Shown here: one piece after another, positions 35,788 to 60,299 of the stretch | Layout of the letters: each line of letters starts with the position of its first letter | Position numbering within the stretch: the stretch's first letter is position 1 | From: an uncultured Bacteroidales bacterium | GTDB lineage: Bacteria > Bacteroidota > Bacteroidia > Bacteroidales > Paludibacteraceae | Direction of reading: 5' to 3' | DNA length: 64,000 nt | NCBI GenBank assembly: GCA_949282265.1 | Contig: CASDOZ010000004.1 | Span: forward strand, 1-64,000 | Notes under the pieces: generated by a model | The model's input: the letters and a program-made list of their open reading frames with translations, nothing else | Database searches by the model: none | What the model was told of the DNA's origin: nothing | Position numbers and translations under genes: made by a program

Positions 35788-35825
35788 ACGGAGAGTACTG
35801 AATGATTGGTATTCTCCGTTTTTTT
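35788..35825. terminator. Terminator between leuB and the LacI-type regulator gene
   Basis: A 10-bp stem (ACGGAGAGTA, 35788-35797, with 35810-35819, one G.U) has a 12-nt loop and is followed by seven T. The gene on the other side converges on it. Confidence 0.8.
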
Positions 35826-36849
35826 ATTTGTTCCCGGAACTTTGGGATGAATCTCTGATATTAAGGCAGGCATTAAGACAAATTGTATGCGGATTCAATG
35901 TATCCGGTGTGTTAATTTGTTCTATGACAAGATTTGCAGCTGCCATCCCAATTTCTAATGTTGGTTGTGCTACACTTGTCAATGTAGGGGTGACTAATTG
36001 TGCTATTTCTGTTTCTGAAAAACCAACCAATGCAATTTGTTCCGGACATCTGATATCTTCTTCTTTCATTGCTTTTAAGGCTCCCAAAGCTAATGGATCA
36101 TTAAAACAGAAGACGGCATCTGGTATATCTTGTGTAGCAAGTACTTGTTTCATTGCTGCATATCCTTTTTCCATTAGCACTCCGACGGTAATAATAGATT
36201 TATCTGTCAGTTCTTTATGATGTTTGTGCATGGCATCGATAAATCCTTTTTTTCTTTTCTCCGTAATACACAGATTTTTGGGGCCAGCAAAATGATATAT
36301 TTTTTTAAAACCATTATAAATTAAATGCTCGGTTGCAAGAAAGGCAAATTTGTAATCATCTATGATAACTTTTGGGGCATTTACCAATGTTGTGACACGG
36401 TTAAAAAATACGAGGGGGATACCATTTTGCATTAACTTGGTATATAATTCCTTGTTTTCCCCTTCTCGTGATATAGATATAATGATACCTTCCACGTTAT
36501 GGTTTTCCAGCATTTGCAGGTTTTGTGCTTCTATTGTTTTTGATTCGTCGGATTGTGTGATTATCAGTTGATAGTTTGCGCTAGATAATACTTTTTGTAT
36601 TCCGGCAATTACTAATGGGAAAAAGGATGTCCTTAATTCAGGGACGACCAAACCGATTAACCGGGATCTGTTTTTTTGTAGCTTGAGGGCAATCAGATTG
36701 GGATGATAATTAAGTTGTTTGGCGGCGTTAAGCACTTTGTTTCTGGTCGTAGCTTTTACATTTGGAAGGTTTGCCAATGCACGGGAAACTGTGGCGACGG
36801 ATATATTGAGGTATTTAGCAATATCTTTGATTGTAGTCTGTCGTTTCAT
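35824..36849 (-). CDS. LacI family transcriptional regulator of the PUL
   Basis: This 341-aa protein has an N-terminal LacI helix-turn-helix (TIKDIAKYLNISVATVSRAL, then the hinge NYHPNLIALKLQ) and a periplasmic-binding-protein-like effector domain (IGLVVPELRTSFFP ... CFNDPLALGALKAMKEEDI ... LVGFSETEIAQLVTPTLTSVAQP). The effector is probably a sugar from the PUL substrate. The frame is open from ATG 36873, but that codon overlaps the -7 box at 36871-36878 and would lie upstream of the transcription start, so ATG 36849 (MKRQTTIKDIA) is chosen. It is transcribed divergently from the symporter gene, with two matching palindromes between them. Confidence 0.92.
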   Translation of the reverse strand: MKRQTTIKDIAKYLNISVATVSRALANLPNVKATTRNKVLNAAKQLNYHPNLIALKLQKNRSRLIGLVVPELRTSFFPLVIAGIQKVLSSANYQLIITQSDESKTIEAQNLQMLENHNVEGIIISISREGENKELYTKLMQNGIPLVFFNRVTTLVNAPKVIIDDYKFAFLATEHLIYNGFKKIYHFAGPKNLCITEKRKKGFIDAMHKHHKELTDKSIITVGVLMEKGYAAMKQVLATQDIPDAVFCFNDPLALGALKAMKEEDIRCPEQIALVGFSETEIAQLVTPTLTSVAQPTLEIGMAAANLVIEQINTPDTLNPHTICLNACLNIRDSSQSSGNK

Positions 36850-36870
36850 ATCAGCTGATTTTTGACAAGA

Positions 36871-36878
36871 CAAAGGTA
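36871..36878 (-). promoter_or_regulatory. -7 box of the LacI-type gene
   Basis: TACCTTTG on the minus strand is an exact consensus match. Transcription would begin near 36864, only ~15 nt before ATG 36849, which decides the start codon. Confidence 0.7.
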
Positions 36879-36926: not shown

Positions 36927-36940
36927 TGTAAACGTTTGCA
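36927..36940. promoter_or_regulatory. LacI-family operator 1 (imperfect palindrome)
   Basis: TGTAAACGTTTGCA has the central CG and near-perfect dyad symmetry of LacI/CcpA-type operators. It lies 29 bp centre-to-centre from operator 2, about 60 bp upstream of the regulator's own predicted start. Confidence 0.75.
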
Positions 36941-36955
36941 TTATTTTTTTTATGA

Positions 36956-36969
36956 TGTAAACGTTTACA
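36956..36969. promoter_or_regulatory. LacI-family operator 2 (perfect palindrome)
   Basis: TGTAAACGTTTACA is a perfect 14-bp palindrome with central CG. It sits about 60-75 bp upstream of the predicted symporter transcription start. The paired, same-face-spaced sites suggest cooperative binding of the divergent regulator. Confidence 0.8.
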
Positions 36970-37053: not shown

Positions 37054-38712
37054 ATGGCAATATTGGATTATATTACTATTGTTCTGTTTTTGATTGGAGT
37101 TTTGATTGCAGGTCTTTCCTTCTCAAAAAAGAGTAAAAATATGACAAGTTTTTTTGCTGCAGATGGTAATATACCTTGGTGGATTGGTGGTCTATCGTTA
37201 TTTATGGGATTCTTTTCTGCAGGAACATTTGTTGTTTGGGGCTCTATTGCTTATTCATATGGTTGGGTGGCAATTACGATCCAAATGTGTATGTGCGTTG
37301 CTGGGTTTGCGGTGGCGTTTTTTATTGCACCGCGCTGGAAGCATACACGTGTTTTGACTGTTGCAGAATACATTACTAATCGTTTGTCTTTATCAACACA
37401 GAAAATATATACATATCTTTTTTTATTGGTTTCGTTATTTACTACGGGGGCTTTCTTGTATCCTGTAGCAAAGATAGTGGAAGTTTCTACGGGTTTGTCT
37501 TTGCAATTATGCATATTATTGTTGGGAGGTATAAGTATTTTGTATGTTGCAGCAGGCGGCTTGTGGGCTGTGGTCATAACTGATGTTTTACAATTTGTTA
37601 TACTTACTACTGCAGTGCTGATTGTAGTTCCTTTGTCTTTTGAAAAAGTGGGCGGCATAGGTGAATTTTTTGCAAATGCACCAACTGATTTTTTTGCGTG
37701 GACAAATGGAGAGTATACATGGTTGTTTGTCTTGGCTTTTTGTATATATAATACATTCTTTTTGGGCGGTAATTGGAGCTATGTACAGCGTTATACTAGC
37801 GTTAGGACAGAAAAGGATGCACGTAAAGTAGGTTTGTTATTTGGCAGTTTGTATGTGATTTGTCCTTTATTGTGGATGTTGCCTCCTATGATTTATAGAG
37901 TTTATAATGGTGATTTGGTCGGGTTGGCGGATGAGGGAGCATATTTGATGATGTGTAAGGAAGCCTTGCCAAAAGGTTTCTTGGGATTAATGCTTGGAGG
38001 GATGGTTTTTGCGACAGCAAGTTCTTTGAATGGAGCCTTGAATATTTCAGCAGGTGTTTTTACCAATGATATATATAAACGTATTTTTACTAAATCATCA
38101 GACAAACAATTGATTAGAGTGGCTCGCTGGTCAACAATAAGTTTTGGTATATTGGCAGTAATAGTTGCATTGTTGATCCCGTATATGGGAGGAATTGTGA
38201 ATGTTGTGATTAGTCTGGGCGCATTGACTGGTGTACCTTTATATTTACCTGTAATATGGACACTGTTCTCAAAACGTCAGAATAAGTTTACTGTGCTTTT
38301 TACAACGTTGTTTAGCCTTTTCGTAAATCTGGTATTTAAATTTATAACCCCTGCATTGGGGCTAACCTTGAATCGGGAATGGGAAATGTTGGTGGGTGTT
38401 CTGACTCCGATAGCGATATTGTCAATAGTTGAAGTTTATTTATATATAGTCCATTATACGGATCCGAATGTGGGGAAATTTAAACTTTTGATTGCGAAAC
38501 AGTTGCATGTGGATGAAGAACAATCGGTAAAACAGGCGGACAATGCGTTCGGCTTGTCTGTAGTAGGCATTGGTATTGGTTTATCGGGGATATTGATTGC
38601 TCTTCTGGAAATCATTGCTTCTGCCCAAGGTAATGTACATTGGATTATCTACCTGATGGCAGCATTGCTATTGGGTGTAGGAATACTATTTTATTGTAAA
38701 TCAAAAAAATGA
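37054..38712 (+). CDS. Sodium:solute symporter (SSS family)
   Basis: This 552-aa inner-membrane protein has about 13-14 hydrophobic helices, the length and pattern of SSS (SGLT-like) sugar/Na+ symporters. Family-like stretches include FFAADGNIPWWIGGLSLFMGFFSAGTF in the first two helices and VAAGGLWAVVITDVLQF. A periplasmic-to-cytoplasmic uptake role for the PUL's monosaccharide or small product is inferred from position: it is the first gene downstream of the LacI operators, 36 nt before the FAD oxidoreductase gene. The ion and sugar are not predictable. Confidence 0.9.
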   Translation: MAILDYITIVLFLIGVLIAGLSFSKKSKNMTSFFAADGNIPWWIGGLSLFMGFFSAGTFVVWGSIAYSYGWVAITIQMCMCVAGFAVAFFIAPRWKHTRVLTVAEYITNRLSLSTQKIYTYLFLLVSLFTTGAFLYPVAKIVEVSTGLSLQLCILLLGGISILYVAAGGLWAVVITDVLQFVILTTAVLIVVPLSFEKVGGIGEFFANAPTDFFAWTNGEYTWLFVLAFCIYNTFFLGGNWSYVQRYTSVRTEKDARKVGLLFGSLYVICPLLWMLPPMIYRVYNGDLVGLADEGAYLMMCKEALPKGFLGLMLGGMVFATASSLNGALNISAGVFTNDIYKRIFTKSSDKQLIRVARWSTISFGILAVIVALLIPYMGGIVNVVISLGALTGVPLYLPVIWTLFSKRQNKFTVLFTTLFSLFVNLVFKFITPALGLTLNREWEMLVGVLTPIAILSIVEVYLYIVHYTDPNVGKFKLLIAKQLHVDEEQSVKQADNAFGLSVVGIGIGLSGILIALLEIIASAQGNVHWIIYLMAALLLGVGILFYCKSKK

Positions 38713-41055: not shown

Positions 41056-43887
41056 ATGAAATTGTGTAATTGGATTATATGGGTGTTTTTCTTCTTGGCT
41101 GTAATCTCGTGTTCGTCAAAGCAAGTAGGGGATGATGGCAATATTGAAATACGTATAAATAACCATGTTTTTGCATTCCGTCCTGATTTTACGGTTATAT
41201 ATACGGAAAAAGACCCTAATTTGGCCTTCCGCCCAAGTGGTATTCCAAATGTGCAGTATAATGTTCCTGTCTGGAATACGGTAACTACATCGGACACATT
41301 AGTTTATGTGGAGCGTACCGAGGAACAATATGGAGATGGATTTGATGACTCGATTTTGGAACGGAATAATGGAAGAATAACTCCTAATGTATATAAAAGT
41401 GGTGAGGTTTACCATACGGAATTGGATTATTATAAACAAAGTGGAGATACGGTTTATTTTGTTTTTAGACCATTGAATGTTGGAAATTTACAGGCAAAAG
41501 TGATATTGTCAGAGCAATATCCGATATTGAGATTTGAATTTTTCCCTGAAAAAACGGGCTTTTACTCTATTGGATATACGGGGGCTCCAGAATACGGACA
41601 ACAAAAAGTAGATGAAATTTGGCAACCTCTTATATGGCAGGAAAAACGTATTCCTACGTTGCCATATATGACAATGGCTTATCGCTGTCCAATACCTACA
41701 GCTTTGATGAATGTCCGGAATGTAACGTTGGGGGTCGTTGCAAAATCAAGTGAGTTCCCGTTTATGCCTTTGCCCACGATGGATAATAGTCGTTTTGGCG
41801 TGGTTCTTATAAATAGCTCCGGACATATACAACCGCAATTGTTCGCTCCTGTTTTGGGTGGACAGGGGTCTGAAATGGATATGGGTGATGTATTTCGGTT
41901 TTCCATGCACTTATACGTTGATTCTGGAGATTGTTCCATGGCTTTTGAACAAATTGGCAAAGAATTGTATGGTTTTAAGAATTATCGCCGGAATGTAGAT
42001 GTGTCCCTCAATCGGACATTGGATAATATGATTGATTATGCGATGAGTCCGTATAGTATGTTTGTGGATAGTCTGAAAGGTTGTAATTATTCGACGGATG
42101 CTCCGGGTGCAGTTAAGAATGTTTCGGCATTGAATCCTTTGCAGACAGCTATAATTTCTGGCCGTGAAGATATTTATGCGAAACGGGCATATCCAATGAT
42201 AGAATATATGTTGTCAAGGGACAAGTTTTTGTTTGCAATAGATTCAACACAAAAAATACAGTATCCATCTCGGAAATTGACCGGTCCTTGTGCACCAATC
42301 AGTGAGCTTGTGTCATTGTATCTCATTTCGGACAAAAAAAATCCATTTTTATTGGACATGGCATTAAAAGAGTTTTCCGGTTCACGTGTGCGTAATTTAG
42401 CTAAATTAGAGTTTGGTGGACGCTGGCAAAATGCGCTTGCATTGTATCGTGCAACAAGCGACCAACATTGGCTCGATGCAGCGAAACAGGGAGCTGATGT
42501 GTATTTAAAGGATCGTGTGTATTCCAAACAAAAAGATTTCTCTGAACAAGGAGTTGAATATTTCTTTTGGACAGGATTTACGCCGGATTGGGTGTCTTTG
42601 TTTGAGTTGTATGAAACTACGGGTGACAAACGTTATTTGGATGCTTCACATAAGGCTTTGCGGGAATATGCTATGTTTGTTTGGTTTGCACCACAGATAC
42701 CGGAAGACACTGTTCTCGTAAATCCGGATGGTTTAGCTCCTTATTATCCGTATTTGCGCTCAAAAGGTTATGAACGTATGGTAGCAGCACCAGAAAAGGT
42801 ACCTGCGTGGCGTTTATCTGAAATTGGTTTGACCTCAGAAAGTTCAGGAACATCTACTGGACATCGTGGTATATTTATGGCTAATTATGCTCCATGGATG
42901 TTGCGAATAGGATATTTGACCAATGATAGTTGGTTGCAGGATATCGCTAGGTCAGCAATAATTGGGCGTTATCAGAATTTTCCAGGTTATCATATTAACA
43001 CAGAGCGTACGACGATTTACGAGAAAGAAACATATCCTTATAAAAAATACGATGAATTAAGTGTCAATTCTTTTCATTATAATCATATTTGGCCACATAT
43101 AAATATCCTCACTGACTTCTTGGTGACAGATGCATATGTCAGATCAGAGGGGAATATAGTTTTCCCTTCGGAATTTGTGGAAGGTTTTGCTTATCTGCAA
43201 AGTAAGTATTATGGACATGCAAAAGGGTGTGTGTATGGGTATGATGATGTACAGCTATTTTTACCGCAGGGCTTGTTAACATCAAGTTCATGTCAATTGA
43301 ATTATATAGCAGGTTATAATAAAGAGATGTTTTTTCTTGCTTTTATGAATCAATCACCTGAAAAACAATCTGCGGTGATAATACTGAATGATTCTTTGTT
43401 TGGGAATTTGTCTGCCCAAGATTATAATGTGGAAGTTTGGCAAGCAAATACAAAGGCAAACAGTACGTTGTTACAATCTGGCAAAATGAAAATTGATGTT
43501 CCAGGAAATGGATTGGTGGTGACAATAATTAAGGGTTTATCTCCGACTCGTGAGGTATTAACATTCCCATGTAAAAGTGATGAGAGGAGGTGGAAAAAGG
43601 CATTCTTACATGATGAAAATAGTGGAATAACAGCTATGTTACTGCAAATAGCAGGTAAAAAAACACTGTTTATATATAGTAATAAGGATGATTCGGAGTA
43701 TGACGAATGTGTGTTATATTATAAAATGAATGAGTATGCAGATTGGCAAGTAAGCAATTCCAAAAGGTTTCCATTTGAATACACTGTTACATTGCCAGAT
43801 TCTTGTCGTTATGTAGAATGTAGATTGGATGGCAAGGATAAAGTGGGTAAATTGGAGCAAGGTTTGGTTATTGATTTATATGAATAG
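41056..43887 (+). CDS. Lipoprotein of an unrecognised large (probably alpha/alpha-toroid) carbohydrate-active family, copy 1
   Basis: This 943-aa protein has a lipoprotein signal (lipobox VISC, Cys19). An N-terminal beta-sandwich-like region (~20-290) precedes a helix-rich middle (~310-720) with paired helices and Trp/Tyr-rich loops, reminiscent of (alpha/alpha) toroid glycosidases and lyases. A beta-rich C-terminus follows. I could not assign a known GH or PL family. Blocks shared with the next gene include LDNMIDYAM, GAVKNVSAL, PAWRLSEIGL (Trp585), HRGIFMANYAPW, IGRYQNFPGYHINTERTT and a FHYNHIWPHINIL segment. These polar, aromatic blocks look like an active site. The gene lies 15 nt after the FAD oxidoreductase and upstream of SusCD. 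Envelope-anchored action on the PUL glycan is inferred. Confidence 0.6.
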   Translation: MKLCNWIIWVFFFLAVISCSSKQVGDDGNIEIRINNHVFAFRPDFTVIYTEKDPNLAFRPSGIPNVQYNVPVWNTVTTSDTLVYVERTEEQYGDGFDDSILERNNGRITPNVYKSGEVYHTELDYYKQSGDTVYFVFRPLNVGNLQAKVILSEQYPILRFEFFPEKTGFYSIGYTGAPEYGQQKVDEIWQPLIWQEKRIPTLPYMTMAYRCPIPTALMNVRNVTLGVVAKSSEFPFMPLPTMDNSRFGVVLINSSGHIQPQLFAPVLGGQGSEMDMGDVFRFSMHLYVDSGDCSMAFEQIGKELYGFKNYRRNVDVSLNRTLDNMIDYAMSPYSMFVDSLKGCNYSTDAPGAVKNVSALNPLQTAIISGREDIYAKRAYPMIEYMLSRDKFLFAIDSTQKIQYPSRKLTGPCAPISELVSLYLISDKKNPFLLDMALKEFSGSRVRNLAKLEFGGRWQNALALYRATSDQHWLDAAKQGADVYLKDRVYSKQKDFSEQGVEYFFWTGFTPDWVSLFELYETTGDKRYLDASHKALREYAMFVWFAPQIPEDTVLVNPDGLAPYYPYLRSKGYERMVAAPEKVPAWRLSEIGLTSESSGTSTGHRGIFMANYAPWMLRIGYLTNDSWLQDIARSAIIGRYQNFPGYHINTERTTIYEKETYPYKKYDELSVNSFHYNHIWPHINILTDFLVTDAYVRSEGNIVFPSEFVEGFAYLQSKYYGHAKGCVYGYDDVQLFLPQGLLTSSSCQLNYIAGYNKEMFFLAFMNQSPEKQSAVIILNDSLFGNLSAQDYNVEVWQANTKANSTLLQSGKMKIDVPGNGLVVTIIKGLSPTREVLTFPCKSDERRWKKAFLHDENSGITAMLLQIAGKKTLFIYSNKDDSEYDECVLYYKMNEYADWQVSNSKRFPFEYTVTLPDSCRYVECRLDGKDKVGKLEQGLVIDLYE

Positions 43888-43935
43888 AAAAGAGTAGAAT
43901 GATTGTAATGGAATAATTTTTAAGGTTATAATATC

Positions 43936-46900
43936 ATGAAAAAAAACATTGTTATTTTATTGTTATTATCTGTTGTGAGCAGTTTGTGTGCCCAAATTCA
44001 TACGATGTTGAATGATAGGTATAGACTTTCGTATGATAGTGGTACTCATGAGTTGGAGGTTATGGAGTTATCATCTCAAGTTTCCCGTATTTTTTCTCCA
44101 ACATTTCAAGTTGTTTATCGTTCTGCTAAGCCGAATTTAAGTCTGGCTGAAATTAGTGAGGATTTTAATTATAAGACAGTTGCATATAATGGGGATACGG
44201 ATTTGTTTTCCGCAAACGCAGGTTCTTTTACTTTATGCGTGCCAGAATCCGTTGTTATTCAAAAAGATACATTGGTGATTTCATATCAGACATCAGATAA
44301 GTATATATTTAAAGCCAAAATCTTTTTGCCACAAGGGAATGAAGAACCTGTCGTTATATCAGATTTACAGAATTTAGTTGCAGGTTATTTTAGTGTAGGC
44401 TACTATGGCGCTCCGGAGCAAAACATAGATGGCGTAAAAGAATTGTTTCAACCCTTACCATTTATAGGGAAAAGAGCCCCGCAAAAATCATATCTTACTC
44501 CAGCATTTTTGGCAACTATACCCGGAACGTTTTTAACGGTGGGGAATATAACATACGGGGTTTATGCTGATCCTGTTGAATTTCCATTTGCTCCTTTGCC
44601 ATGTACGTTGGCACGTAGTCCTTTTGGTGTTGCTATTCGAAATCAATATGGTATAGGGAAAGAATTAAAGCCTATGGTATGGGCTCCCATAATAGGTAAT
44701 TCAGATTCGTACATGTCTGTTCCGAATGAAAAGAAATCTTTTAGGATTCGCTTATATGTATCTGGGGAGACATTGACATCTGCTTATGAAGATATTGCAT
44801 GTCGGGTGTTTGGGTTTGGTGATTACAGAAACAATGATTTGGGATCATTAAATACGACGATGGATCGCATGATAGATTATGCTATGAGCACGGAATGGGG
44901 AGTTTGGAAAGCTGATATGAAAGGTAGTAGCTATGATACTGATGTGGAAGGGGCAGTGAAAAATACGTCTGCATTACCAGCTTATGCCATGGCATTTGTC
45001 GTAGATAATGAAAATATATTTAATGAAAGAGCCATGCCTGTTTTGGAGTTTTTATTATCTCGAGAAAATACAATGTTTGCTTATAGTGAAACAGGCGGGG
45101 CAGGAGGGCAAACAGCTACAAATAGTTTAGGTAAACCTTGTATGAATGTTTCAGAGATGTTGTCTTTCTATTCTATTACAGGAAATAAAATGGATGCTTT
45201 GTATGAATTGGCATTGCAAAATAAACGTGGTTCTTTATTGTCATCGGAAGTTGCACTTAAAGAGAATTTTTCATTTTTTAGAGCAACTGGTGAAAGCTTG
45301 TATAGAACTAATCTTATAGAAGGCACAAATAAATACATAGAGGAGGAAATAACCAATAAACCGACAGATTTTACTTATGTCAATCATAGTAAATCAAGTT
45401 TCTGGTCACAGATAGCACCCAAATTTGTTGAGCTATATGAGATATATAAGACGACAGGTGATATTGATTATTTGTACGCAGCTCATCAAGCAGCTCGTTC
45501 CTATGCTTATTTCCTATGGATGGCTCCGCGGTTTGAGCTATCAGACAGTGTGTTATGTAATGTGGGGAATAAAGCTCCGAATTATCGTTCGGGAACTCCC
45601 ATTTTTATACCAGAAGAAAAAGCTCCGGCGTGGCGGTTGTCGGAAATGGGATTGCAATGTGAATGTGGTGGTACGTCGACATCGAAACACCGTGGCATAT
45701 TTACGGCGAATTATGCTCCTTATTTATTGCGTATAGGTTCATTAGTCCAAGATAGTTTTCTACTTAATATAGGCAAAGCCGGAGTCATAGGAAGATATTC
45801 AAACTTTCCGGGTTATCATATCAATACAGATCGGACAACGGTTTATGAGAAAGAGAACTTTCCTTTACGTCCTTTATCCCAATTGACAACGACGACATCT
45901 ATGCATTATAGTCATATTTGGACTCAAATAAATTTATTGCTTGATTATATGGTTAGTGATGTCGCAGCTCGCACCCATGGGAAAATCGATTTCCCAGGTT
46001 ATTATGTTCAAAACATAGTGCATATGCAAAGCCAAGTTTATATGCAGGGCGGTGAATTTTATGGAGAGAAAGGATTGGTTCTATATATGCCCCAAAAATT
46101 CCTAGTAGTTGACAATAAGCAACTGAATTATGTAACGGCATATGGGAATAACAAGTTGTACATTATTTTTACGAACCAAAGTAATAATGATGTTTATAGC
46201 TCTATCGTGATTAATCCAAATTATATTTCAATTCCAGATAATGTATATAAATGCTGGGAGGAAAATGAACTCATTGCAGGTGGTACAGTGAAAGATAATT
46301 TGTTGTCTGTTCATGTTGGTCCTGGGGGTGTAACAGCCATAGCCGTAGAGAATGTTATAATCAAACCTAAATTTCAGCAAAAGATTCTTCAAAATACATA
46401 TAGAAATAAATGGTCGCAATATTATGTTGGTAATATTGAAGTCGGAAACTCAAAAGCAGTATTGCTTAATCCATCTGATTCATTGACTCGACTATTTGTG
46501 TTTTCAACAGCGCCATCCGGTGAATTGGATAAATTTCAAATAGATTATTCTATAGATGGTCAGGAGTGGCATACTGAAATTGATGATGCATATCCATTTG
46601 AATTTACAATTAAAATAGATGATGCCAATTCGATAGATTATAAAATAACAATAGCTGGTAGAACATCTGAAGTTTACCGCATGGAACGTCTTAAACCAAC
46701 TGCGGTATTGGAAGGTTGGAATAGTATAAAACGTTCGCAAGGTGCGGACATGTACTTGTCTTTTAATGGAGAAAGTCCATTTGACATAACATACACAGAA
46801 AATGGAAATTTACAGTCAATTACAGATATACCAAATGCTTCTCATGTATTCCATGTTGCACCTCAATACGATTCTCGTTATACCTTGTGTTCTGTCGTAG

Positions 46901-47742
46901 ATGCTTATGGAACAAAAGGTACGGTAACGGGGAATTCGAAAGTTGTCGTAGTAGATGGTTATGAAGCACTACAGAAATATCCTGTTGTGCAGGATGCTCA
47001 GACATTTAACTCGCAACCGGCAAATAATTTTGGAAGTGCAGAACAAATTGAATTAAAAGGGATTCCTTCCAATAGGAAAGATTTGTATTTTACTTTTGAA
47101 TTGCCGGAAATAGAACTTGCTGACAAAGAAAGGCTTAAGTTGGGATTATGGCTCAATTCAAAGAAACGATTGGATGAACCAGGTAGTAAGGTTATGCTTG
47201 TACTTGATAAATTTGATACGGATTGGGTTGAAACGGAACTGACATGGCAGTCTCGTCCGGCAGATGCGATAATGCAATCTATTGATACAATCGCGATAAC
47301 AAATGATACTCCTGTTGATGGCTTTATTTATTTTGATATAACACCATTAGCAGAGGATGGGGGGGGGAATTTGAATTGTAAGGTTTCTTTTTTAGATGGT
47401 GAGGAAGCAGCTTCTTTATATATTGCAACAAAGGAAGATGTCGAACAAGAAAAACATCCTCATATAGCGTTGATGACAGAAGCAGAACGTACGGAAATCT
47501 ATCCGGTTCAAAAAGGTGATAACGACGTTGTTTTGACTCCTACCATTGTTTCTGCTTTGTTAAATATACATTCTTCTGGATCGTATGATGAAATAATTAT
47601 ATATAATTCAAACGGTCAAACAATTCGTCGTATGCCATATGCCAGTGTATTAGATCTGTCATTTCTTGCGCGAGGGAGTTATTTTTTAATGTTGATAAAA
47701 GATGGTATGCAACAAGTGGTTCAACAAATAGTAAAAAAATAG
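43936..47742 (+). CDS. Secreted paralogue of the preceding gene with Ig-like, DNRLRE and T9SS-tail modules, copy 2
   Basis: This 1268-aa protein has a Sec signal (ends SSLCAQ, residue ~20) instead of a lipobox. Residues ~20-900 are homologous to the preceding protein (MDRMIDYAM, GAVKNTSAL, PAWRLSEMGL with Trp566, HRGIFTANYAPYLLRIG, IGRYSNFPGYHINTDRTT). It then carries an Ig-like module (~918-1005), a DNRLRE-type module (~1005-1182; WVETELTWQSRPAD is characteristic) and a type A T9SS C-terminal domain (~1190-1268; IIIYNSNGQTIRRM...GSYFLMLIKDG). So the same unknown activity occurs once as a lipoprotein and once as a T9SS-type cargo. A run of nine G at 47359-47367 lies in the DNRLRE part; slippage there would remove the sorting tail. 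Confidence 0.65.
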   Translation: MKKNIVILLLLSVVSSLCAQIHTMLNDRYRLSYDSGTHELEVMELSSQVSRIFSPTFQVVYRSAKPNLSLAEISEDFNYKTVAYNGDTDLFSANAGSFTLCVPESVVIQKDTLVISYQTSDKYIFKAKIFLPQGNEEPVVISDLQNLVAGYFSVGYYGAPEQNIDGVKELFQPLPFIGKRAPQKSYLTPAFLATIPGTFLTVGNITYGVYADPVEFPFAPLPCTLARSPFGVAIRNQYGIGKELKPMVWAPIIGNSDSYMSVPNEKKSFRIRLYVSGETLTSAYEDIACRVFGFGDYRNNDLGSLNTTMDRMIDYAMSTEWGVWKADMKGSSYDTDVEGAVKNTSALPAYAMAFVVDNENIFNERAMPVLEFLLSRENTMFAYSETGGAGGQTATNSLGKPCMNVSEMLSFYSITGNKMDALYELALQNKRGSLLSSEVALKENFSFFRATGESLYRTNLIEGTNKYIEEEITNKPTDFTYVNHSKSSFWSQIAPKFVELYEIYKTTGDIDYLYAAHQAARSYAYFLWMAPRFELSDSVLCNVGNKAPNYRSGTPIFIPEEKAPAWRLSEMGLQCECGGTSTSKHRGIFTANYAPYLLRIGSLVQDSFLLNIGKAGVIGRYSNFPGYHINTDRTTVYEKENFPLRPLSQLTTTTSMHYSHIWTQINLLLDYMVSDVAARTHGKIDFPGYYVQNIVHMQSQVYMQGGEFYGEKGLVLYMPQKFLVVDNKQLNYVTAYGNNKLYIIFTNQSNNDVYSSIVINPNYISIPDNVYKCWEENELIAGGTVKDNLLSVHVGPGGVTAIAVENVIIKPKFQQKILQNTYRNKWSQYYVGNIEVGNSKAVLLNPSDSLTRLFVFSTAPSGELDKFQIDYSIDGQEWHTEIDDAYPFEFTIKIDDANSIDYKITIAGRTSEVYRMERLKPTAVLEGWNSIKRSQGADMYLSFNGESPFDITYTENGNLQSITDIPNASHVFHVAPQYDSRYTLCSVVDAYGTKGTVTGNSKVVVVDGYEALQKYPVVQDAQTFNSQPANNFGSAEQIELKGIPSNRKDLYFTFELPEIELADKERLKLGLWLNSKKRLDEPGSKVMLVLDKFDTDWVETELTWQSRPADAIMQSIDTIAITNDTPVDGFIYFDITPLAEDGGGNLNCKVSFLDGEEAASLYIATKEDVEQEKHPHIALMTEAERTEIYPVQKGDNDVVLTPTIVSALLNIHSSGSYDEIIIYNSNGQTIRRMPYASVLDLSFLARGSYFLMLIKDGMQQVVQQIVKK

Positions 47743-47749
47743 TCGTGTT

Positions 47750-50700
47750 ATGAAAAAGTTGAGTTTTATTATCGTATGTTTTTTTGTTTGTACTTCAACA
47801 TTGCAAAGTTTTGCGGAAACACGAACAATAACAGGACAAGTGGTTGATGAAGAGGATATGGCTATAATAGGAGCCACGGTCGTGACATCAGATGGATCAG
47901 GTACTATTACCGATCTTGATGGCAATTTTAGTTTGAATATTTCGGAAGCGACAAAAACTATTGAGGTGTCGTATATGGGCTATAAAAGCCAAACTTTGAA
48001 AGTCGGAGACAAAACTGTGTTTTTCGTGAGGTTGGAAGCGGATGTCCATACATTGCAGGAAGTTGTTGCAGTGGGATATGGAACGCAGAAAAAAATTAAT
48101 TTGACGGGTTCTATAGAAAATGTGGATATGCGTACATTGGAGAATAGGGCTTTGACTAATGCGAGTATGGCTTTGCAAGGTCAAGTATCTGGTGTTATGG
48201 TTGTTCAAGGATCTGGACAAGCAGGTGGCGACCAAGCTCAAATACGTATACGAGGCATATCTTCTATGGAAAATAACAATAGCCCATTAGTAATAATTGA
48301 TGGAATGGAAGGGGATATTAATGATGTGGACCCAAAAGATATTGAGTCAATGACAGTTATGAAGGATGCTTCGTCAGCAGCTATTTATGGAAATAAGGCA
48401 GCCTCCGGTGTTGTCTTAATTACAACAAAACGAGGTAGGGGAGATGTGTTTCAAGTTGACTATTCATTTATGCAATCCTTACAAGAACCAACTCGGTTGC
48501 CTGAGATTGTAAATGCAAAAGAATACATCACATTATGGAATGAAGCTAATATAAATGATGGTACGGTACCGCGTTATGATTTGGACAAGGAATTTGCTGC
48601 TTATGATGAAGGGACGAAGGCATCGATAAATTGGTATGATGTATATTTTAAAAGGGCACCGATGCAAAAACATCATATCAATATTATGTTGAGTTCAGGA
48701 AATTTGAATACTTCAACATCTTTCAGCTATTTGAAGCAAGATGGTATGTTGTATGGGACAGGTTATAACAAATTTAATTATCGTACGAATATAGGTGCAA
48801 TGACAAAAAATAAGAAAATCAAGTTAGACATGCATATTTCTGGTTATCGTGACAATACGGAAGACAATACGAGTGCCAGTCAATATGTATTGAATAAAGT
48901 GAACAGTTCCCCTCCTTTTGCACCGTATGTGACGGAAGCATCTGATCCGTCAAATCCATTCACATACATAAAAAAGGAAACTGCAGATGGGGTTATATAT
49001 AGTGGATATGCAAATTATATAGGATATAAAGAATTGGGAGGCGGCAAAAATACGATAAAAAACCGAATTAATAATAATTATATTCTGACTTATGAGCCGA
49101 TTAAGGGATTGAGTATAGAAGCTAGATATGGATTTTATTTCTTATCTAACAGTATGAGTAATTTTTTGCCGGTTACAACTTTACAGAGTGATATTAATAG
49201 TGAAGCAGGGGGGGCATTATCATCTTCCCGTGCCGAATTGACAGAAAGTAGGACGGAAACTTTCTTTCAGAATTTCCAAGCAGTCGCTAAATTTGAGAAG
49301 ACATTTGCAGAATCCCATAAATTGAATCTTTTGGCAGGAACGTCACTGGAAGACCAGTCGACAGCTTTGATATCGACAAAAGTAACAAATTTTGTAACCA
49401 ATGTGGGTGTTTTGGATTTTGGCGAAGATCCTGTTAATCCGACAGGAACCATATCAGAACGTCGTTCGTTATCATTCTTTGGCCGGCTTAATTATAATTA
49501 TAAGGAACGGTATTTAGTAGAAGCGAACTTACGTTATGATGGTTCTTCCCGATTCTTGAAAGGGCATCGTTGGGGAGCATTTCCATCTTTCTCTATTGGT
49601 TGGCGCACATCTCAGGAGGATTTTTTTGCTCCCCTTTTGCCAGTCGTATCTAATTTGAAAATACGTGCGTCATATGGTTTATTGGGTAATGAAAACATTT
49701 ATACGTATTATGCAGGCTATAATCAATTAAAGAGCGATGTTAGTTATTCATTTGAAGATAAGGTATATAATGCTATTCGTTTGTATTCATTTGCAGATAA
49801 AAATACAACATGGGAAAAAACAGAACAAGCTAATCTTGGATTAGATATGAGTTTGTTTTCCAGATTAAATCTTACGTTTGATGTCTATCGAAAACGGACC
49901 TATGATATATTAGCCAGAGTTCAGGTTACGAATATTATTGGTACGGATGTATTGCCATATCAAAATATTGGAGAAATGTTAAATGAGGGTTGGGAGTTGA
50001 GTTTGAATTATAATGATAATTTTTGGAATGATTTTCAAATATATGCGAATATGAATATTTCCGGACAGCGTAATGAATTGTTGAGTTTGAAAAACACTTC
50101 CCAAGATTATGTGTTCAATTCTGTTTCGAGTTCTTTTTTTGAGGGCTATAATATGATTATTACCAAAGTGGGGGAATCTTATGGATCTTATTATGGTTAT
50201 GAGGTAGAGCGTATATTCCAAGTGGATGATTTTACGTGGCAGAATAATAGCGACCCAACTATCAGTCATGCAAACCGCGAGTATGTCCTGAAACCGGGAA
50301 TAGCGACCCAATCGGAAAATCCACGACCGGGTGATCTGAAATTTAAAGATTTGACTCCGGATGGAATTATCAATGACAAAGACCGTACAATTATAGGTAA
50401 ACAACTACCGGATTTGATGTATTCTTTCAATGTGGGTCTTAGTTGGAAAGGAATTGATGTTTCATGTTTCTTTCAAGGCGTTATGGGAGGTGATGTTTAT
50501 ACAGGAGGATATCTGGTATCGCCATTTTATAATAGTGCTCCATTGTTAAAATCATATTTGACGGATCGTTGGACTTATGAAAATCCAAGTACGGAATATC
50601 AAAGGGTTTACATAGACAAAACCAAACAAAAAATTGTGTCAGATTATTATGTACAAGATGCATCATATTTGCGTCTTAAAAACATAGAATTGGGTTATAC

Positions 50701-50884
50701 TTTCCCTAAAAAGTGGATGGAAAAAGTGAGGCTTACAAAATTAAAGATATATGGAAGCGTGCAAAATGCTTTTTTATGGAGTAAAGCAAAATCTTTTGAC
50801 CCGGAAAAACTTGGTAATGTGGTTAGTTCTGATTTCCACCCGCAAGCGCGTATATATTCAATTGGACTTAATGTTGTATTTTAA
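47750..50884 (+). CDS. SusC-like TonB-dependent outer-membrane transporter
   Basis: This 1044-aa protein has a signal peptide (ends SFAE, ~24), then a carboxypeptidase D regulatory-like domain (TITGQVVDEEDMAIIGATV ... IEVSYMGYKSQTL), a TonB-box region (LQEVVAVGYGTQKK), a plug domain (QIRIRGISSMENNNSPLVII; DASSAAIYGNKAASGVVLIT) and a 22-strand barrel ending in aromatic-rich RIYSIGLNVVF. It imports oligosaccharides across the outer membrane, powered by TonB, with the SusD gene 12 nt downstream acting as lid. It lacks an N-terminal STN domain, so no anti-sigma coupling is expected; control here is by the LacI-type protein. Confidence 0.96.
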   Translation: MKKLSFIIVCFFVCTSTLQSFAETRTITGQVVDEEDMAIIGATVVTSDGSGTITDLDGNFSLNISEATKTIEVSYMGYKSQTLKVGDKTVFFVRLEADVHTLQEVVAVGYGTQKKINLTGSIENVDMRTLENRALTNASMALQGQVSGVMVVQGSGQAGGDQAQIRIRGISSMENNNSPLVIIDGMEGDINDVDPKDIESMTVMKDASSAAIYGNKAASGVVLITTKRGRGDVFQVDYSFMQSLQEPTRLPEIVNAKEYITLWNEANINDGTVPRYDLDKEFAAYDEGTKASINWYDVYFKRAPMQKHHINIMLSSGNLNTSTSFSYLKQDGMLYGTGYNKFNYRTNIGAMTKNKKIKLDMHISGYRDNTEDNTSASQYVLNKVNSSPPFAPYVTEASDPSNPFTYIKKETADGVIYSGYANYIGYKELGGGKNTIKNRINNNYILTYEPIKGLSIEARYGFYFLSNSMSNFLPVTTLQSDINSEAGGALSSSRAELTESRTETFFQNFQAVAKFEKTFAESHKLNLLAGTSLEDQSTALISTKVTNFVTNVGVLDFGEDPVNPTGTISERRSLSFFGRLNYNYKERYLVEANLRYDGSSRFLKGHRWGAFPSFSIGWRTSQEDFFAPLLPVVSNLKIRASYGLLGNENIYTYYAGYNQLKSDVSYSFEDKVYNAIRLYSFADKNTTWEKTEQANLGLDMSLFSRLNLTFDVYRKRTYDILARVQVTNIIGTDVLPYQNIGEMLNEGWELSLNYNDNFWNDFQIYANMNISGQRNELLSLKNTSQDYVFNSVSSSFFEGYNMIITKVGESYGSYYGYEVERIFQVDDFTWQNNSDPTISHANREYVLKPGIATQSENPRPGDLKFKDLTPDGIINDKDRTIIGKQLPDLMYSFNVGLSWKGIDVSCFFQGVMGGDVYTGGYLVSPFYNSAPLLKSYLTDRWTYENPSTEYQRVYIDKTKQKIVSDYYVQDASYLRLKNIELGYTFPKKWMEKVRLTKLKIYGSVQNAFLWSKAKSFDPEKLGNVVSSDFHPQARIYSIGLNVVF

Positions 50885-50896
50885 AAATTGGTCAAT

Positions 50897-52465
50897 ATGA
50901 AAAAGTTGGTTTATATTACAGCAATAATGATATCTTGTGTGTCTTGTGAAGATTTTCTGGATCTTCAACCTAAAGACAGTTTGACACCTGAAAATTATTA
51001 CAATACGGCATCGGAAGTAGAGAAGGCTTTGAATGGGGTGTACCATGTTTTGATTTTACAAGGTGGTGCGGATTTTATTTTGAACGCAGAAGTAATGACA
51101 GATAATTGTGTTTATAGTTCGGCGAGTGGTTCAGAATGGTTGGCCTTTACAAAAGGGACATTAAATCCGAGTACATCATACGTTGCGACCAAGTGGGAAA
51201 ATAATTACAAAGGTATAGCTCGTGCAAATCTTGTTATTGAAAATTTGAATCATAAAGAATCCATGATTATTTCTGAAAGTGATCGTCAACGTTTTCTTGG
51301 TGAAGCCCATTTTCTACGTGCATATTTTTATGCAGACTTGCTTAATTTCTATGGTGGCGTTCCAATTGTTATGTCAACATTGGACAATATAAAAGATTAT
51401 AATTTGCCAAGATCCGCACCCGAATTGGTGTTGGATACCATATTGTATGATGTGAATATAGCCATTGAGAATTTGAAAGAAGAAGCACCTGCCAATAATC
51501 TTGGGCGAGCTACTAAAGGGGCGGCATTATTTTTAAAAGCAAGAGTTTTGTTGTTTAATGAACGGTATATGGAATCATATACCGCATTACAAACTTTAAA
51601 TCAATTGGAAATATATGAATTGTTACCTAATTATGCAGACATCTTTGCTCCTGACAATGAAAATAATCAAGAAGTGATTTTCGATATCCAATATGCAGAT
51701 GCAAATAATACATACTCATCATATCCATTTTATTCGTATATAAAAGAATGGAGTGGAGGATATGTTCCAACTGTTTCATTGGCAGAGGATTTTTATGATT
51801 TACGAGGTGGTAAGGTTGAATTTCCGCCTAAAAAATTTGGAGATTTCTTCAAAAATAGGGATAAGCGTATGTCAGTAACATTGACACTTCCTTTGGATAA
51901 TTGGGGAGATGGTATTTATATTCCAAAAAGTTCGGATAAGAAATACTATAATTCATGCATGAAAGTGAATAAATATTTTGTATATAGTGATTTGACCAAC
52001 TCAAATAAGCGTTCTACATTGAATATTATTCTTTTCCGTTATGCAGATGCCAAATTGATGCAGGCTGAATGTATTATAGAAGATGATAATTTGTTTGCCG
52101 ATAAAAAACGCGAGGCCATTACGCTATTGGATGAAGTAAGGAACCGCGCAGGGCTTCCTGCTATAGAACAGGTTATCGCAAATCCTTCACGTGAAGAATT
52201 ACGGGAAATATTGCGTAGGGAGCGTCGGTGCGAATTGGCATTTGAAAATTCGCGATTGAATGATATTCGTCGTTGGAAGATAGCGGAAGAAGTAATGTGT
52301 GCGGATGCGTTGGGATATGATCCGGAAGCCTATGAGGCTGGTACATGGGAAACATATCCGATAGAGACCAATCGTTTGTTTTTACCGCATCAATATTTGT
52401 GGCCGATTCCCCAATCAGAAATGGATGCCAATACTGGTATTGATACAAATAATCCAGGATATTGA
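50897..52465 (+). CDS. SusD/RagB-family glycan-binding lipoprotein
   Basis: This 522-aa protein has a lipoprotein signal (lipobox CVSC, Cys17) followed by the classic SusD start CEDFLDLQPKDSLTPENYYNT. The helical TPR-like part (RQRFLGEAHFLRAYFYADLLNFYGGVP) and the C-terminal RRERRCELAFENSRLNDIRRW are family signatures. The final segment LFLPHQYLWPIPQSEMDAN is also conserved. It forms the substrate-capturing lid on the upstream SusC-like transporter. ATG 50897 is chosen over the TTG at 50888 because it starts the signal peptide. Confidence 0.95.
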   Translation: MKKLVYITAIMISCVSCEDFLDLQPKDSLTPENYYNTASEVEKALNGVYHVLILQGGADFILNAEVMTDNCVYSSASGSEWLAFTKGTLNPSTSYVATKWENNYKGIARANLVIENLNHKESMIISESDRQRFLGEAHFLRAYFYADLLNFYGGVPIVMSTLDNIKDYNLPRSAPELVLDTILYDVNIAIENLKEEAPANNLGRATKGAALFLKARVLLFNERYMESYTALQTLNQLEIYELLPNYADIFAPDNENNQEVIFDIQYADANNTYSSYPFYSYIKEWSGGYVPTVSLAEDFYDLRGGKVEFPPKKFGDFFKNRDKRMSVTLTLPLDNWGDGIYIPKSSDKKYYNSCMKVNKYFVYSDLTNSNKRSTLNIILFRYADAKLMQAECIIEDDNLFADKKREAITLLDEVRNRAGLPAIEQVIANPSREELREILRRERRCELAFENSRLNDIRRWKIAEEVMCADALGYDPEAYEAGTWETYPIETNRLFLPHQYLWPIPQSEMDANTGIDTNNPGY

Positions 52466-52508: not shown

Positions 52509-55500
52509 ATGAAAACAAGTTATTTTTTAGCAGCAGGTTTGGCTATGCTAATTAGTGTTGGTGCAGTTGCGCAAACTCCAAAAGACACGTTGAAGACATG
52601 TTATGATAATTTTTTAGAGTATCAAGTACAAGGAGCTAATAATGAGAATGCCGGCTATATGCGTTTGGCATTGAAATCAGGTTACTTTCGTTACGGTTTA
52701 GTAGCTTTTGATATGTCTAAAATGTCATCTATCAGAGATAAGGTGGAACTTGCTTTGTATGTGTATAGTTCGACATCTGATGATTTCTTTAAGGGTACTG
52801 TTCAGGATACTTATCCAATAGGTGTTTATGGTTTGAAACGCAATCCGACTTTACCTACTTCATATGGTAGATTTGTTGGAACCTCAACAGATGATCCTGC
52901 CGGCGACGGGTTTAGTATAATAGGATCATATCCTAAAAAATTGGCAGAAGAGGATGCTGATTTTCTGGGTGAAGTGGTTGTCCAGAAAGCGGATCAAGAT
53001 AGTTATGTCAAGGTGGATGTGTCCGATTTTGTTAATAAACACATAAATAGTAATGATACGATATTTTTCTTTTTAACTTCTAATGCAACGGTTGCTGATA
53101 AGGTCTCGCTTTACATAAAGACAATGGAGGAAGGCAATAACGTGGCTCCCCGGTTATATTTGTATGATGAGCAGCCAATTGCATTAATGCAAGGAGGACG
53201 GGATATCTTTGTTGGGGAAAAAGATTCTGTTTTTGTCTTTTTTCCGGCAACAGCACAGCCTCCATTTTCGATAACTTATACAGAAGGCGATAAACCAGTT
53301 CAAGTTAATGGTATTCAATCTATGAAGTATGGTTTTGAAGTCGCTCCTCAAACAGACATTACCTATACCTTGACACATGCAGAGGATGCAAATGGAGAAT
53401 TAAGTATTAGTGGTTCCGCTTCTTTTGTTATTAAAACGCCAACTGCTGTTATAAGTGGAAAAAATAAAATATATACAGGTTCGTCATCGAGTCTTAAAAT
53501 TGATTTTCAAGGGATTCCTCCATTTTCATTTTCGATGGAAGATGATAAAGGGAATATTATTTCCCAAACAAACATATTAACAAGCTCATACGTGTTGACT
53601 GTATCGCCTGAGAATACATTTACATATACTTTGTTGTCGGCTTCTGATGCTAATAATACTAATATAGTTACAAGTGGGGATGCACAAATTGTTGTTATGG
53701 ATATTCCAGAACCAATGTTAGGTGAAAACTCTGATCAATGGAGCATTGTGTATGGTGAAGAATTTGGAGCAGCCGAACTACAATCGACTGATTGGTCCAT
53801 AACAAAAGGACAACCGGAAGTTGAAGATGATGAATTACGGTTGTATATTACTAATGATGGAACGACAAATGTCGCTGCGCAAGTAAAATATGCGCATGTT
53901 TTACCGACGAATACTGATTTGTATTTGGAAACAAAAATAAAACCGATAAATGCATCAGGTGTTAGCAGCACAATGTTTACACAAACTTATGATGCATCGC
54001 TAAGTTCAATGTACAAGAATCGATATGGGATGACTTTTCCTGAGATACGTTATGTTGGAGATAAGTTATATAACTTGTACTATGCTTTGGATGATTGGAA
54101 AACCAATTATTATATTAAGGATATAGATCCCGATTTAGACTATTATAGTGTAAAAGATTCTTTGTTAGCTCAAACAATTGATGGCTATGCTGTCTTTGGG
54201 GTTGAAATTCGAAAGCAGGAAATAATTTATTATTTAAATGGAATTGAGGTTAAACGTGCCAGCAATATGTATGGCTATAATTCAGGTACGAAGTTTATTG
54301 ATGCATTGACCGCTATAGGATCTGCATATCAGGACGTTGCCCAGAATGCCTATGGGTATTATGAACAAGAAGACTGGAATTTTCTTGGGGGATATACGGG
54401 AGATCAAATGGCTTATATAATGGGGGTAACCATAGATAACACCTTGTTTGATGAAAATGCTGTCGGGCAGTATGCGGCGGTTGATTATTTTCGTATATAT
54501 AAGCTGAAATCAGAAATTAATACGACTCCTGAAGTGGATATTGTTTTTGATGATGATTTGCATTTGGAAATTAGCGGCGATGCCGTTAAGGATAATGGGG
54601 TTATCGCTGTTAATGAGGGTAGTGCAAAATTTGATTTGGGAAAGAATTTTGATGTTGGACAAGATGCATGTTATTATTTTTCGACTATAGTAAATAAAGA
54701 TGAGGATGGTGAGTTTACTATTTCACTTTGTGATGCAGCTAATGAGATTTTAGCAGGATCAGTAATTGATAATTACAATCAACTGAAAACAGGATTTGGC
54801 AGTAACAAACTGTATTATGCTTCTACGGTAAGTGCAGAGCCAGTTGGCAAAAAAAATACTTATTACAAGAATAACGAGGTTTATTTATTGGTCGGACGTA
54901 TTGAAACATCTGCAGAATCCGATGATTATATGAGTCTTTCATTATTCCCGATAATGGATGAAATATCGGAACCCTACTTTTATCCAAATATATCAGGAGA
55001 TTATGGCCATACGAGCCTTAATAATGGTTGGGATTTGAATTATAAGTATGAAATAGGCACAGGGACGATTTCAAAGATTCAACTCGAAAGTAAACGTGCT
55101 ACAACTTTTGTACAAAAATATTTGTTAGGAACCAGTTTCAAGAGTGTTTTACCTAAGGAAAGCTTCGTGACTTTTGCTCCGCAGATGTATTATATAGCTA
55201 AGGGTGAAAACATTGATATTGAAATTTTATTGAAGGGAGAAGCTCCATGGACAATAACTTATACAGATGGTAGTGAAATATATACGATAAAAGATATTAC
55301 GACGCCAACGTTTAAATTAGCTGTAGCCCCGGAGCAAACTACACATTATGAGTTATTGTCGCTTGTTGATGGAAATGGGAACGATGGAATCGCTTTTGGA
55401 GAACTTACAGTGAAAGTTAAATCAGAAGATGCCGTTAGTTTATATCCATACTATGATTCGTTTGTTCGTGCGGATCAGCCAAATGTAACATACGCAAATG

Positions 55501-56234
55501 AAATTACGGGAGAAGTGAAGCAAGATGCCGTATATCATAGGGATGCTTATTTGAGCTTTGATATTTCTGAGTATGACACGACTGATTCTATCGATGTAGC
55601 TTCTTTGTCATTGTTCTTTTTGTCGAATGATAAAGGTGCTGAGGCCGGATTGAGTTTATATTCCGTTGAAGATGGCATGCCTGGCGATATTATTGATTTG
55701 TGTTGGGCGAATCGGCCAGATGATGTGAACATGAAATTCTTAAGTGAAATAACTGTCCAGAATCCCGGATTTTATGGAGTAAGAGGTAATTGGGATGTCG
55801 CAAAATTTATTAATGAAAAATTGCGCAGTGGGGCAGGAACAGTAGATTTTTGCATAAAATTGACCAGTGGTAATACCAGTGCTTTGCTGAAGTGGCGTCA
55901 ATATGCTCCGGATTCTTTAGAGCTGGCTTCTCAATTTCCAATGTTGGAGTTGGATCCATATCATGAGCCTACCGCTATCAGTTCAGTTATAAGAGATAGA
56001 GACATTGTCGGAATTAGCCCTAATCCGGTAATGGATGGATATTTCGATATTAATTCGACAGGGCAGTTGATTGGTAATTTTACTGTACGTGTATATTCGA
56101 TTAGTGGAGAATTGATTTCTATACCAGAAGTAAATCATTGTCGAGTTCAAATAGGTAATATGCCGAAAGGTATTTATATGGTGGAAATCAAGGACGAAAT
56201 TATGCGATATTATGCAAAATTGATAGTTCAGTAG
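52509..56234 (+). CDS. Multidomain surface protein with a catalytically degenerate GH16-like domain
   Basis: This 1241-aa protein has a Sec signal (ends VGAVAQ, ~22), then a DNRLRE-type module (~25-225), two Ig-like modules (~225-400), a GH16-fold domain (~405-670), a LamG-like module with a YLLVGRI motif (~680-880), a third Ig-like module (~895-975), a second DNRLRE module (~975-1150) and a type A T9SS tail (~1168-1241; SPNPVMDGYFDI...GIYMVEIKDE). The GH16 region aligns with the next gene (shared NRY, DWKT and QxDWxxxGG blocks), but the catalytic ExDxxE is here G507-M-T509-F-P-E512. The nucleophile Glu and helper Asp are lost; only the acid/base Glu remains. A binding, not hydrolytic, role is inferred. 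Its place right after SusD is that of surface glycan-binding proteins. Confidence 0.75.
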   Translation: MKTSYFLAAGLAMLISVGAVAQTPKDTLKTCYDNFLEYQVQGANNENAGYMRLALKSGYFRYGLVAFDMSKMSSIRDKVELALYVYSSTSDDFFKGTVQDTYPIGVYGLKRNPTLPTSYGRFVGTSTDDPAGDGFSIIGSYPKKLAEEDADFLGEVVVQKADQDSYVKVDVSDFVNKHINSNDTIFFFLTSNATVADKVSLYIKTMEEGNNVAPRLYLYDEQPIALMQGGRDIFVGEKDSVFVFFPATAQPPFSITYTEGDKPVQVNGIQSMKYGFEVAPQTDITYTLTHAEDANGELSISGSASFVIKTPTAVISGKNKIYTGSSSSLKIDFQGIPPFSFSMEDDKGNIISQTNILTSSYVLTVSPENTFTYTLLSASDANNTNIVTSGDAQIVVMDIPEPMLGENSDQWSIVYGEEFGAAELQSTDWSITKGQPEVEDDELRLYITNDGTTNVAAQVKYAHVLPTNTDLYLETKIKPINASGVSSTMFTQTYDASLSSMYKNRYGMTFPEIRYVGDKLYNLYYALDDWKTNYYIKDIDPDLDYYSVKDSLLAQTIDGYAVFGVEIRKQEIIYYLNGIEVKRASNMYGYNSGTKFIDALTAIGSAYQDVAQNAYGYYEQEDWNFLGGYTGDQMAYIMGVTIDNTLFDENAVGQYAAVDYFRIYKLKSEINTTPEVDIVFDDDLHLEISGDAVKDNGVIAVNEGSAKFDLGKNFDVGQDACYYFSTIVNKDEDGEFTISLCDAANEILAGSVIDNYNQLKTGFGSNKLYYASTVSAEPVGKKNTYYKNNEVYLLVGRIETSAESDDYMSLSLFPIMDEISEPYFYPNISGDYGHTSLNNGWDLNYKYEIGTGTISKIQLESKRATTFVQKYLLGTSFKSVLPKESFVTFAPQMYYIAKGENIDIEILLKGEAPWTITYTDGSEIYTIKDITTPTFKLAVAPEQTTHYELLSLVDGNGNDGIAFGELTVKVKSEDAVSLYPYYDSFVRADQPNVTYANEITGEVKQDAVYHRDAYLSFDISEYDTTDSIDVASLSLFFLSNDKGAEAGLSLYSVEDGMPGDIIDLCWANRPDDVNMKFLSEITVQNPGFYGVRGNWDVAKFINEKLRSGAGTVDFCIKLTSGNTSALLKWRQYAPDSLELASQFPMLELDPYHEPTAISSVIRDRDIVGISPNPVMDGYFDINSTGQLIGNFTVRVYSISGELISIPEVNHCRVQIGNMPKGIYMVEIKDEIMRYYAKLIVQ

Positions 56235-56271
56235 TTGGTTGTGTTGTTTTTTTAATGGGAATGATACAGGG

Positions 56272-56299
56272 TTGCACGATGATTATTTCCATTGTGCAA
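56272..56299. other. Hairpin between the two GH16-type genes
   Basis: A 9-bp inverted repeat (TTGCACGAT with ATTGTGCAA, one G.U) with a 10-nt loop lies in the 97-nt gap. No T-tract follows, so it is not a standard terminator; it may shape mRNA processing or expression differences within the operon. Confidence 0.35.
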
Positions 56300-56331
56300 T
56301 TCTGTAACATTTCTGGGTTTATATACGAGAT

Positions 56332-58824: not shown

Positions 58825-58831
58825 AACCCCA

Positions 58832-60203: not shown

Positions 60204-60261
60204 ACATGATGAAGGGGAAAAATGGTTGGTTGGGAGATGTTTATTTTTCTCTTCATCATGT
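60204..60261. repeat. Long-loop inverted repeat upstream of the GH2 gene
   Basis: ACATGATGAAG (60204-60214) and CTTCATCATGT (60251-60261) are perfect complements around a 36-nt spacer. They lie between the stop of the binding-protein gene and ATG 60300. It could be an RNA stem-loop affecting GH2 expression. Confidence 0.5.
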
Positions 60262-60299
60262 TTCTTAATATACGAATTATAGTTAAAATTGAAGTGCTG

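Follow-up and report, generated by a model that had tools for sequence, protein, structure and literature searches.

A sparse, phylum-crossing family of putative carbohydrate-active enzymes and its recurrent LacI–symporter–FAD oxidoreductase partner cassette

Introduction

HypBA1, a member of GH127, carries a catalytic Glu/Cys cluster, and GH95 is an (alpha/alpha)6 family. For PL27, one published account (PMC8377490) gives a layout of a beta-sandwich plus an (alpha/alpha)6 barrel. Here we compare with these systems two neighbouring proteins, P1 and P2, encoded in a 64,000-nucleotide stretch of DNA (the window) from an uncultured Paludibacteraceae bacterium. The branch of a known fold to which they appear to belong, and the recurrent gene cassette beside it, were found undescribed in the literature and databases searched; among the titles and abstract openings listed from the open-access PMC literature, no description of either was found.

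Two old paralogues in one operon

Both P1 (41056..43887, + strand, 943 amino acids) and P2 (43936..47742, + strand, 1,268 amino acids) are present as open reading frames. They align over 893 columns with 33% identity (463 bits, E 4e-149), a similarity far above chance that bears out the tandem paralogy claimed in an earlier, sequence-only reading of this DNA, and the sequence blocks quoted in that reading (PAWRLSE and others) fall in the best conserved part of the alignment. With P1 as query, the two proteins were the sole matches in their own genome (2.47 Mb, 28 contigs, completeness put at 89%).

P1 starts with a signal-like stretch followed by a lipobox (VIS-C19, at Cys19), identified by eye and with a simple pattern. 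The pattern occurred in 4 of 49 family rows (P1, L013, L038 and, doubtfully, L065); it is missing from the P1-like neighbours in L010 and G613. Judged by eye, P2 also opens with a signal-like stretch, and it carries extra C-terminal modules. Its CBM96/DNRLRE module (residues 1014–1165; 46975..47430, +) matched PF24517 with 45 bits (cut-off 26) and NF033679 with 34.1 (cut-off 34), while a possible T9SS type A tail (residues 1209–1265; 47560..47730, +) remained below the cut-offs for Por_Secre_tail (17 bits versus 27 in Pfam, 18.3 versus 23 in NCBIfam). An Ig module, proposed for P2 purely from reading the translation, gave no Pfam match at E ≤ 1. The two localisation signals described earlier stand in part: the P1 lipobox (by eye), the signal-like start of P2 and its DNRLRE module were found, but the lipobox is not conserved and the T9SS tail is below cut-off. 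The further proposal of one activity in an anchored and a T9SS-secreted form is unsupported, because the proteins are 33% identical, the partners in L010 and G613 lack the lipobox and the tail of P2 does not reach the cut-off. A frame break, which may be an assembly error, interrupts the P1-like gene of L010 (9998-12651, from a Paludibacteraceae MAG of reindeer).

Upstream of P1, a LacI-type regulator with Pfam LacI and Peripla_BP domains (35824..36873, −) is divergent from the operon. On the + strand follow a sodium:solute symporter (SSS; 37054..38712), assigned by homology cluster c2 and by TIGR00813 (E 2.1e-47; 162 bits, below the cut-off of 184), and a FAD-dependent oxidoreductase (PF12831; 38749..41040), placed by Pfam and a tree in a dedicated subfamily and, by eye, without a signal peptide. 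Downstream of P2 (all +) are a SusC- and SusD-like pair (47750..52465; SusD by Pfam, SusC by its translation and homology cluster), three CBM96 proteins (52509..60190; Pfam, NCBIfam) and, by domain search, a GH2 (60222-62216) and a GH97 gene (from 62754, past the window end to about 64700). From symporter to SusD the genes follow one another in a single run, separated by 36, 15, 48, 7 and 3 bases. Of the three CBM96 proteins, only the first has a T9SS tail above the cut-off, the others scoring below it; in the second, a GH16-like (ExoK) match lies far under the cut-off.

Between the lacI and symporter genes lie two LacI-operator-like sites, TGTAAACGTTTGCA and TGTAAACGTTTACA (36927..36969, no strand assigned), 29 bases apart from start to start. 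These sites (TGTAAACGTTTRCA) have no further exact match in the assembly. Reversed, the pattern also hits once on each strand, so that the informative features are the pairing and the position. An identical pair with the same 29-base spacing occurs at a family locus of genome G611 (L022:614-656), where it lies past the family gene's stop codon. We infer from these sequences that the LacI protein would bind the paired sites.

Distribution and history of the family

Family matches were counted in five scans, whose samples overlap and whose counts each include the scan's own centre genome. The scan of the phylum with P1 as query (E ≤ 1e-5) gave matches in 4 of 395 genomes, two of the four being weak and of the outgroup type. 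Matches were found in 3 of 61 relatives, in 9 of 300 genomes of the same taxonomic family (family profile search), in 15 of 288 from the phylum of the Verrucomicrobia locus L007 and in 2 of 246 from the phylum of the Planctomycetaceae locus L008. Four loci came from a scan of genome contigs: two from Verrucomicrobia, one from Planctomycetaceae and one from Paludibacteraceae. The family is thus sparse yet crosses phyla, being present in Bacteroidota, Verrucomicrobiota and Planctomycetota. Some genomes (G438, G253, G881 and G1135) carry two to four members or near relatives. No relatives were found in viral contigs or plasmids. Two members from Verrucomicrobia (L007:9599-15196 and L009:9551-15220) extend about 900 residues beyond the family region.

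The family tree and alignment comprise 43 rows, six of the 49 family ORFs (those under 650 amino acids) having been left out. P1 clusters first with members of its own order, class and family and then with those of Verrucomicrobia; P2 belongs to a three-row clade with its counterparts from L010 and G613. The gene order P1–P2 is common to the window genome, L010 and G613. From their separate positions in the tree, and the order kept in three genomes, P1 and P2 are old paralogues retained as neighbours, and a recent local duplication is not supported.

Predicted fold and relation to named families

AlphaFold models show a beta super-sandwich followed by a six-hairpin barrel. In P1 the predicted parts are an N-terminal, galactose-mutarotase-like super-sandwich (residues 21–306; 41116..41973, +), a six-hairpin (alpha/alpha) barrel (residues 318–696; 42007..43143, +) and a beta domain after the barrel (residues 700–830; 43153..43545, +). 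Model 2 places twelve helices within residues 318–696, in agreement with the helical toroid that had been suspected from the sequence.

The shared body of P1 and P2 reached the cut-off of no Pfam or NCBIfam model, and searches of Pfam, NCBIfam and the PDB yielded no match to it over cut-off, whether started from the two proteins or from the profiles. At E ≤ 1, Pfam gave for P1 a single family, GH127 (PF07944; residues 460–535), with 24.7 bits versus 24.9, and for P2 no match to it. The one NCBIfam match of P1 (E 0.021) was judged meaningless, a search of PDB sequences with P1 gave nothing better than E 0.11, and PHROGs had no match for either protein. The statement that no GH or PL family is recognisable consequently held for these collections; the family is unnamed in all three of Pfam, NCBIfam and PHROGs, and may match a CAZy family that has no Pfam model.

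PF07944 matched P1 at 1.4e-5 and 13 of the 43 members at E ≤ 0.01; Pfam GH88 did so in 2 of 43, and GH76 was absent among the 11 families listed. The 43-row profile had 34 matches at E ≤ 10 among PDB sequences, led by 4mu9 (deposited as GH73; 1.7e-5) and GH76 chains (3.0e-5 and 3.2e-5), and these top matches cover only the repeat, around profile positions 426–556. In hhalign comparisons the P-values were 1.9e-8 for GH127 (probability 95), 2.1e-5 for GH76 (77) and 4.1e-5 for GH88/105 (70), with only the repeat region aligning for the latter two. Profiles of GH95, SusC, GH97, GH106, SusD, sulfatase, FAD oxidoreductase and symporter gave 0.0075 or weaker. The predicted twelve-helix barrel and the profile signal agree with the six-hairpin (alpha/alpha)6 superfamily. 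The GH95 profile (three rows) scored like the controls, which counts against a simple superfamily reading since GH95 itself has this fold. Weighing these results, we regard the family as what looks like a distant offshoot of the six-hairpin enzymes.

Conserved residues

The 43-row alignment places W585, E595, R617, R638, Y645, H677 and D687 of P1 in one stretch (42808..43116, +). Across the three phyla T522, G591, R638, H677 and D687 are invariant (43 of 43 rows). E595 and Y645 are present in 41 rows and were lost jointly in L056 and L063, the two longest end branches of the tree, as expected if these residues were a working pair and both members inactive. Lacking E595 and Y645, L056 and L063 are candidate inactive forms. 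At position 348 the 38 core rows carry Asp (30) or Glu (8), and Gly is found in all five outgroup rows (L004, L005, L065:1191-3827, L067:11938-14391 and L074:766-3441). Three of these five share loci with core members.

P1 and P2 both hold the full conserved set, with E576, R620, Y627, H660 and D670 of P2 as the counterparts of E595, R638, Y645, H677 and D687. This set of polar residues favours the enzyme-like character proposed earlier. It fits catalysis, and would suit hydrolysis and elimination alike.

The FAD oxidoreductase cassette

The neighbours of family members were counted with profiles run on the six frames of each of 25 stretches (21 genomes). A SusC/SusD pair, whose co-occurrence the sequence-only reading had offered as a check, is not a constant feature (SusC in 6 stretches, SusD in 5). 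The FAD oxidoreductase subfamily was found in 12 stretches, a count that leaves out two further lower-scoring copies, and the symporter in 10. Other members have GH106, GH95, GH43, GH3, GH31, GH141 and sulfatase genes as neighbours. GH95- and GH106-like ORFs, present near just a few members, fix no substrate; with GH2, GH97 and a weak GH16-like match in the window, the neighbour genes point to no single one.

A gene of the FAD subfamily lies within 5 kb of a family member in 13 of 28 genomes (the 31 genomes with a match minus G836, G190 and G249), as compiled by hand from the PF12831 matches listed and the six-frame profile counts. Random placement predicts 0.96 of 28, and 200,000 simulations never gave more than 7, under a null that takes no account of the general clustering of PUL genes and with some contigs short. 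The symporter adjoins the FAD gene in nine stretches, eight of them from the 13 genomes; G253 has it at a distance of about 15 kb, and for two of the 13 the stretch is too short to judge. In one locus (L136:15378-18500), beside the FAD oxidoreductase, the cassette symporter is a fusion with a GDSL-like esterase domain (28.4 bits against a cut-off of 32.9).

A tree was built from 36 FAD sequences, 16 from family loci (of which L062, L009 and L075 lie over 5 kb away from a member) and 20 PF12831 copies chosen elsewhere among the matches listed. The 16 near copies grouped with four of the others and away from the remaining 16, which come from the same set of genomes; the label 'near' required 3 changes versus a mean of 12 after shuffling. 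The four other copies of the subfamily have the symporter (4/4) and mostly a LacI gene (3/4), with no family member in the stretch covered, so that the cassette exists independently of the family, which often accompanies it. A Mantel test on the distances of FAD enzymes and family members showed no significant co-evolution.

Near copies accompanied by the symporter have no clear signal peptide by eye, two of their starts being uncertain, and the outlying copies of L009 and L075 have a signal-like start. These two (L009:2316-4172 and L075:289-2334) bear an extra N-terminal part, the opening of which resembles, by eye, that of the family members L006 and L012.

Discussion

The explanation that we favour, with moderate confidence, is that P1 and P2 belong to an unnamed CAZyme-like family of exported enzymes that cleave carbohydrates and feed the cassette. 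Their most likely action is to cleave a complex glycan, setting free a sugar to which the symporter, the FAD enzyme and the LacI regulator are tuned. P2 would probably act on polymer outside the cell with the help of its CBM96 module, and P1, at the membrane or within the periplasm, on material imported by SusCD. The symporter would take up the freed sugar, which the partner FAD enzyme would oxidise in the cytoplasm; the LacI protein would sense the sugar and control the operon through the paired sites. Because relatives in three phyla often adjoin the same kind of importer and a sugar-oxidising enzyme, the family probably feeds one shared breakdown route. Counting against a passage from glycan to cassette, there is no one-to-one tie between family and cassette, no significant distance correlation and no substrate from the neighbours.

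In the predicted architecture the barrel, between the N-terminal super-sandwich and the following beta domain, would bear the active site. Our guarded first choice of chemistry is hydrolysis with an acid pair of D348, acidic in all 38 core rows, and E595. The alternative within the same favoured explanation, elimination by Y645, H677, R638 and E595, is possible but somewhat doubtful.

Elimination overlaps with a separately weighed lyase version of the favoured explanation that we think rather unlikely, in which the proteins are PL27-like lyases performing beta-elimination beside a uronic acid, Y645 and H677 serving as base and acid while R638 and E595 neutralise the carboxylate. With the better model, the PL27 enzyme BACCELL_00875 ranked third in Foldseek (5nok, E 2.0e-5, probability 1.0; 5no8, 9.9e-5), and the family hardly varies in the Tyr, His, Arg and Glu. 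However, query TM-scores were below 0.3 (0.28 for 5nok), no PL27 chain was among the 34 PDB matches of the 43-row profile (E ≤ 10, in a set whose PL27 content is unconfirmed), and 34 stretches, nine of them short loci, held no GH88/105-like ORF at E ≤ 1e-6. Absence from a Foldseek or VIA list was never used to exclude a fold.

It is less likely still that the barrel was kept in a non-enzymatic, glycan-binding or structural PUL protein. The CBM96 modules of P2 and of three downstream neighbours would suit such a role, and the two rows that lost E595 and Y645 suggest that inactive members may exist; against it, P1 and P2 keep E595, R638, Y645, H677 and D687 or their counterparts, and three of these (R638, H677 and D687) never vary from phylum to phylum.

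We consider a remote GH127-type arabinofuranosidase very improbable, despite the PF07944 and hhalign signals given above and the second rank of HypBA1 in Foldseek (E 4.7e-6). P1 falls under the curated cut-off, the match is restricted to the helical repeat, and the family has no conserved cysteine (best column 20 of 43 rows), whereas the GH127 ORFs fetched for comparison have CC in 12 of 13 and ETC or ESC in 8 of 13. A sugar isomerase or epimerase of the AGE kind has next to no likelihood.

Returning to exported enzymes that feed the cassette, their broadest form is one that we advance tentatively: a new, active and polyspecific CAZyme family in three phyla that hands its sugar to an undescribed LacI–symporter–FAD route in which oxidation by the flavoenzyme comes first. 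If true, an enzyme family would be added to the sugar-degrading repertoire of three phyla, and tied to a flavoenzyme route for a sugar. As the cassette recurs, its FAD enzyme and symporter should reveal the sugar ahead of the polysaccharide.

Among known systems, the GH127 beta-L-arabinofuranosidases (PF07944) resemble the family in the profile of the helical repeat, and differ from it in that the match stops short of their conserved loops, P1 is below cut-off and the family lacks conserved cysteines. The six-hairpin glycosidases GH76 and GH88/105 share the predicted barrel fold and the repeat motif, but the repeat alone aligns and neither P1 nor P2 has a Pfam match to them over cut-off. Enzymes of the GH65/GH94 type, whose families appear neither among those Pfam listed for the 43 members nor in the profile search of the PDB, have a beta super-sandwich before an (alpha/alpha)6 barrel as the models do, with Foldseek and VIA matches over both parts. 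The PL27 L-rhamnose-alpha-1,4-D-glucuronate lyase BACCELL_00875 is absent among the PDB sequences that the profile matched, and the family has further beta domains past the barrel; in the predicted models the likeness to this lyase nevertheless covers both parts in Foldseek, the beta-sandwich and the (alpha/alpha)6 barrel that follows it.
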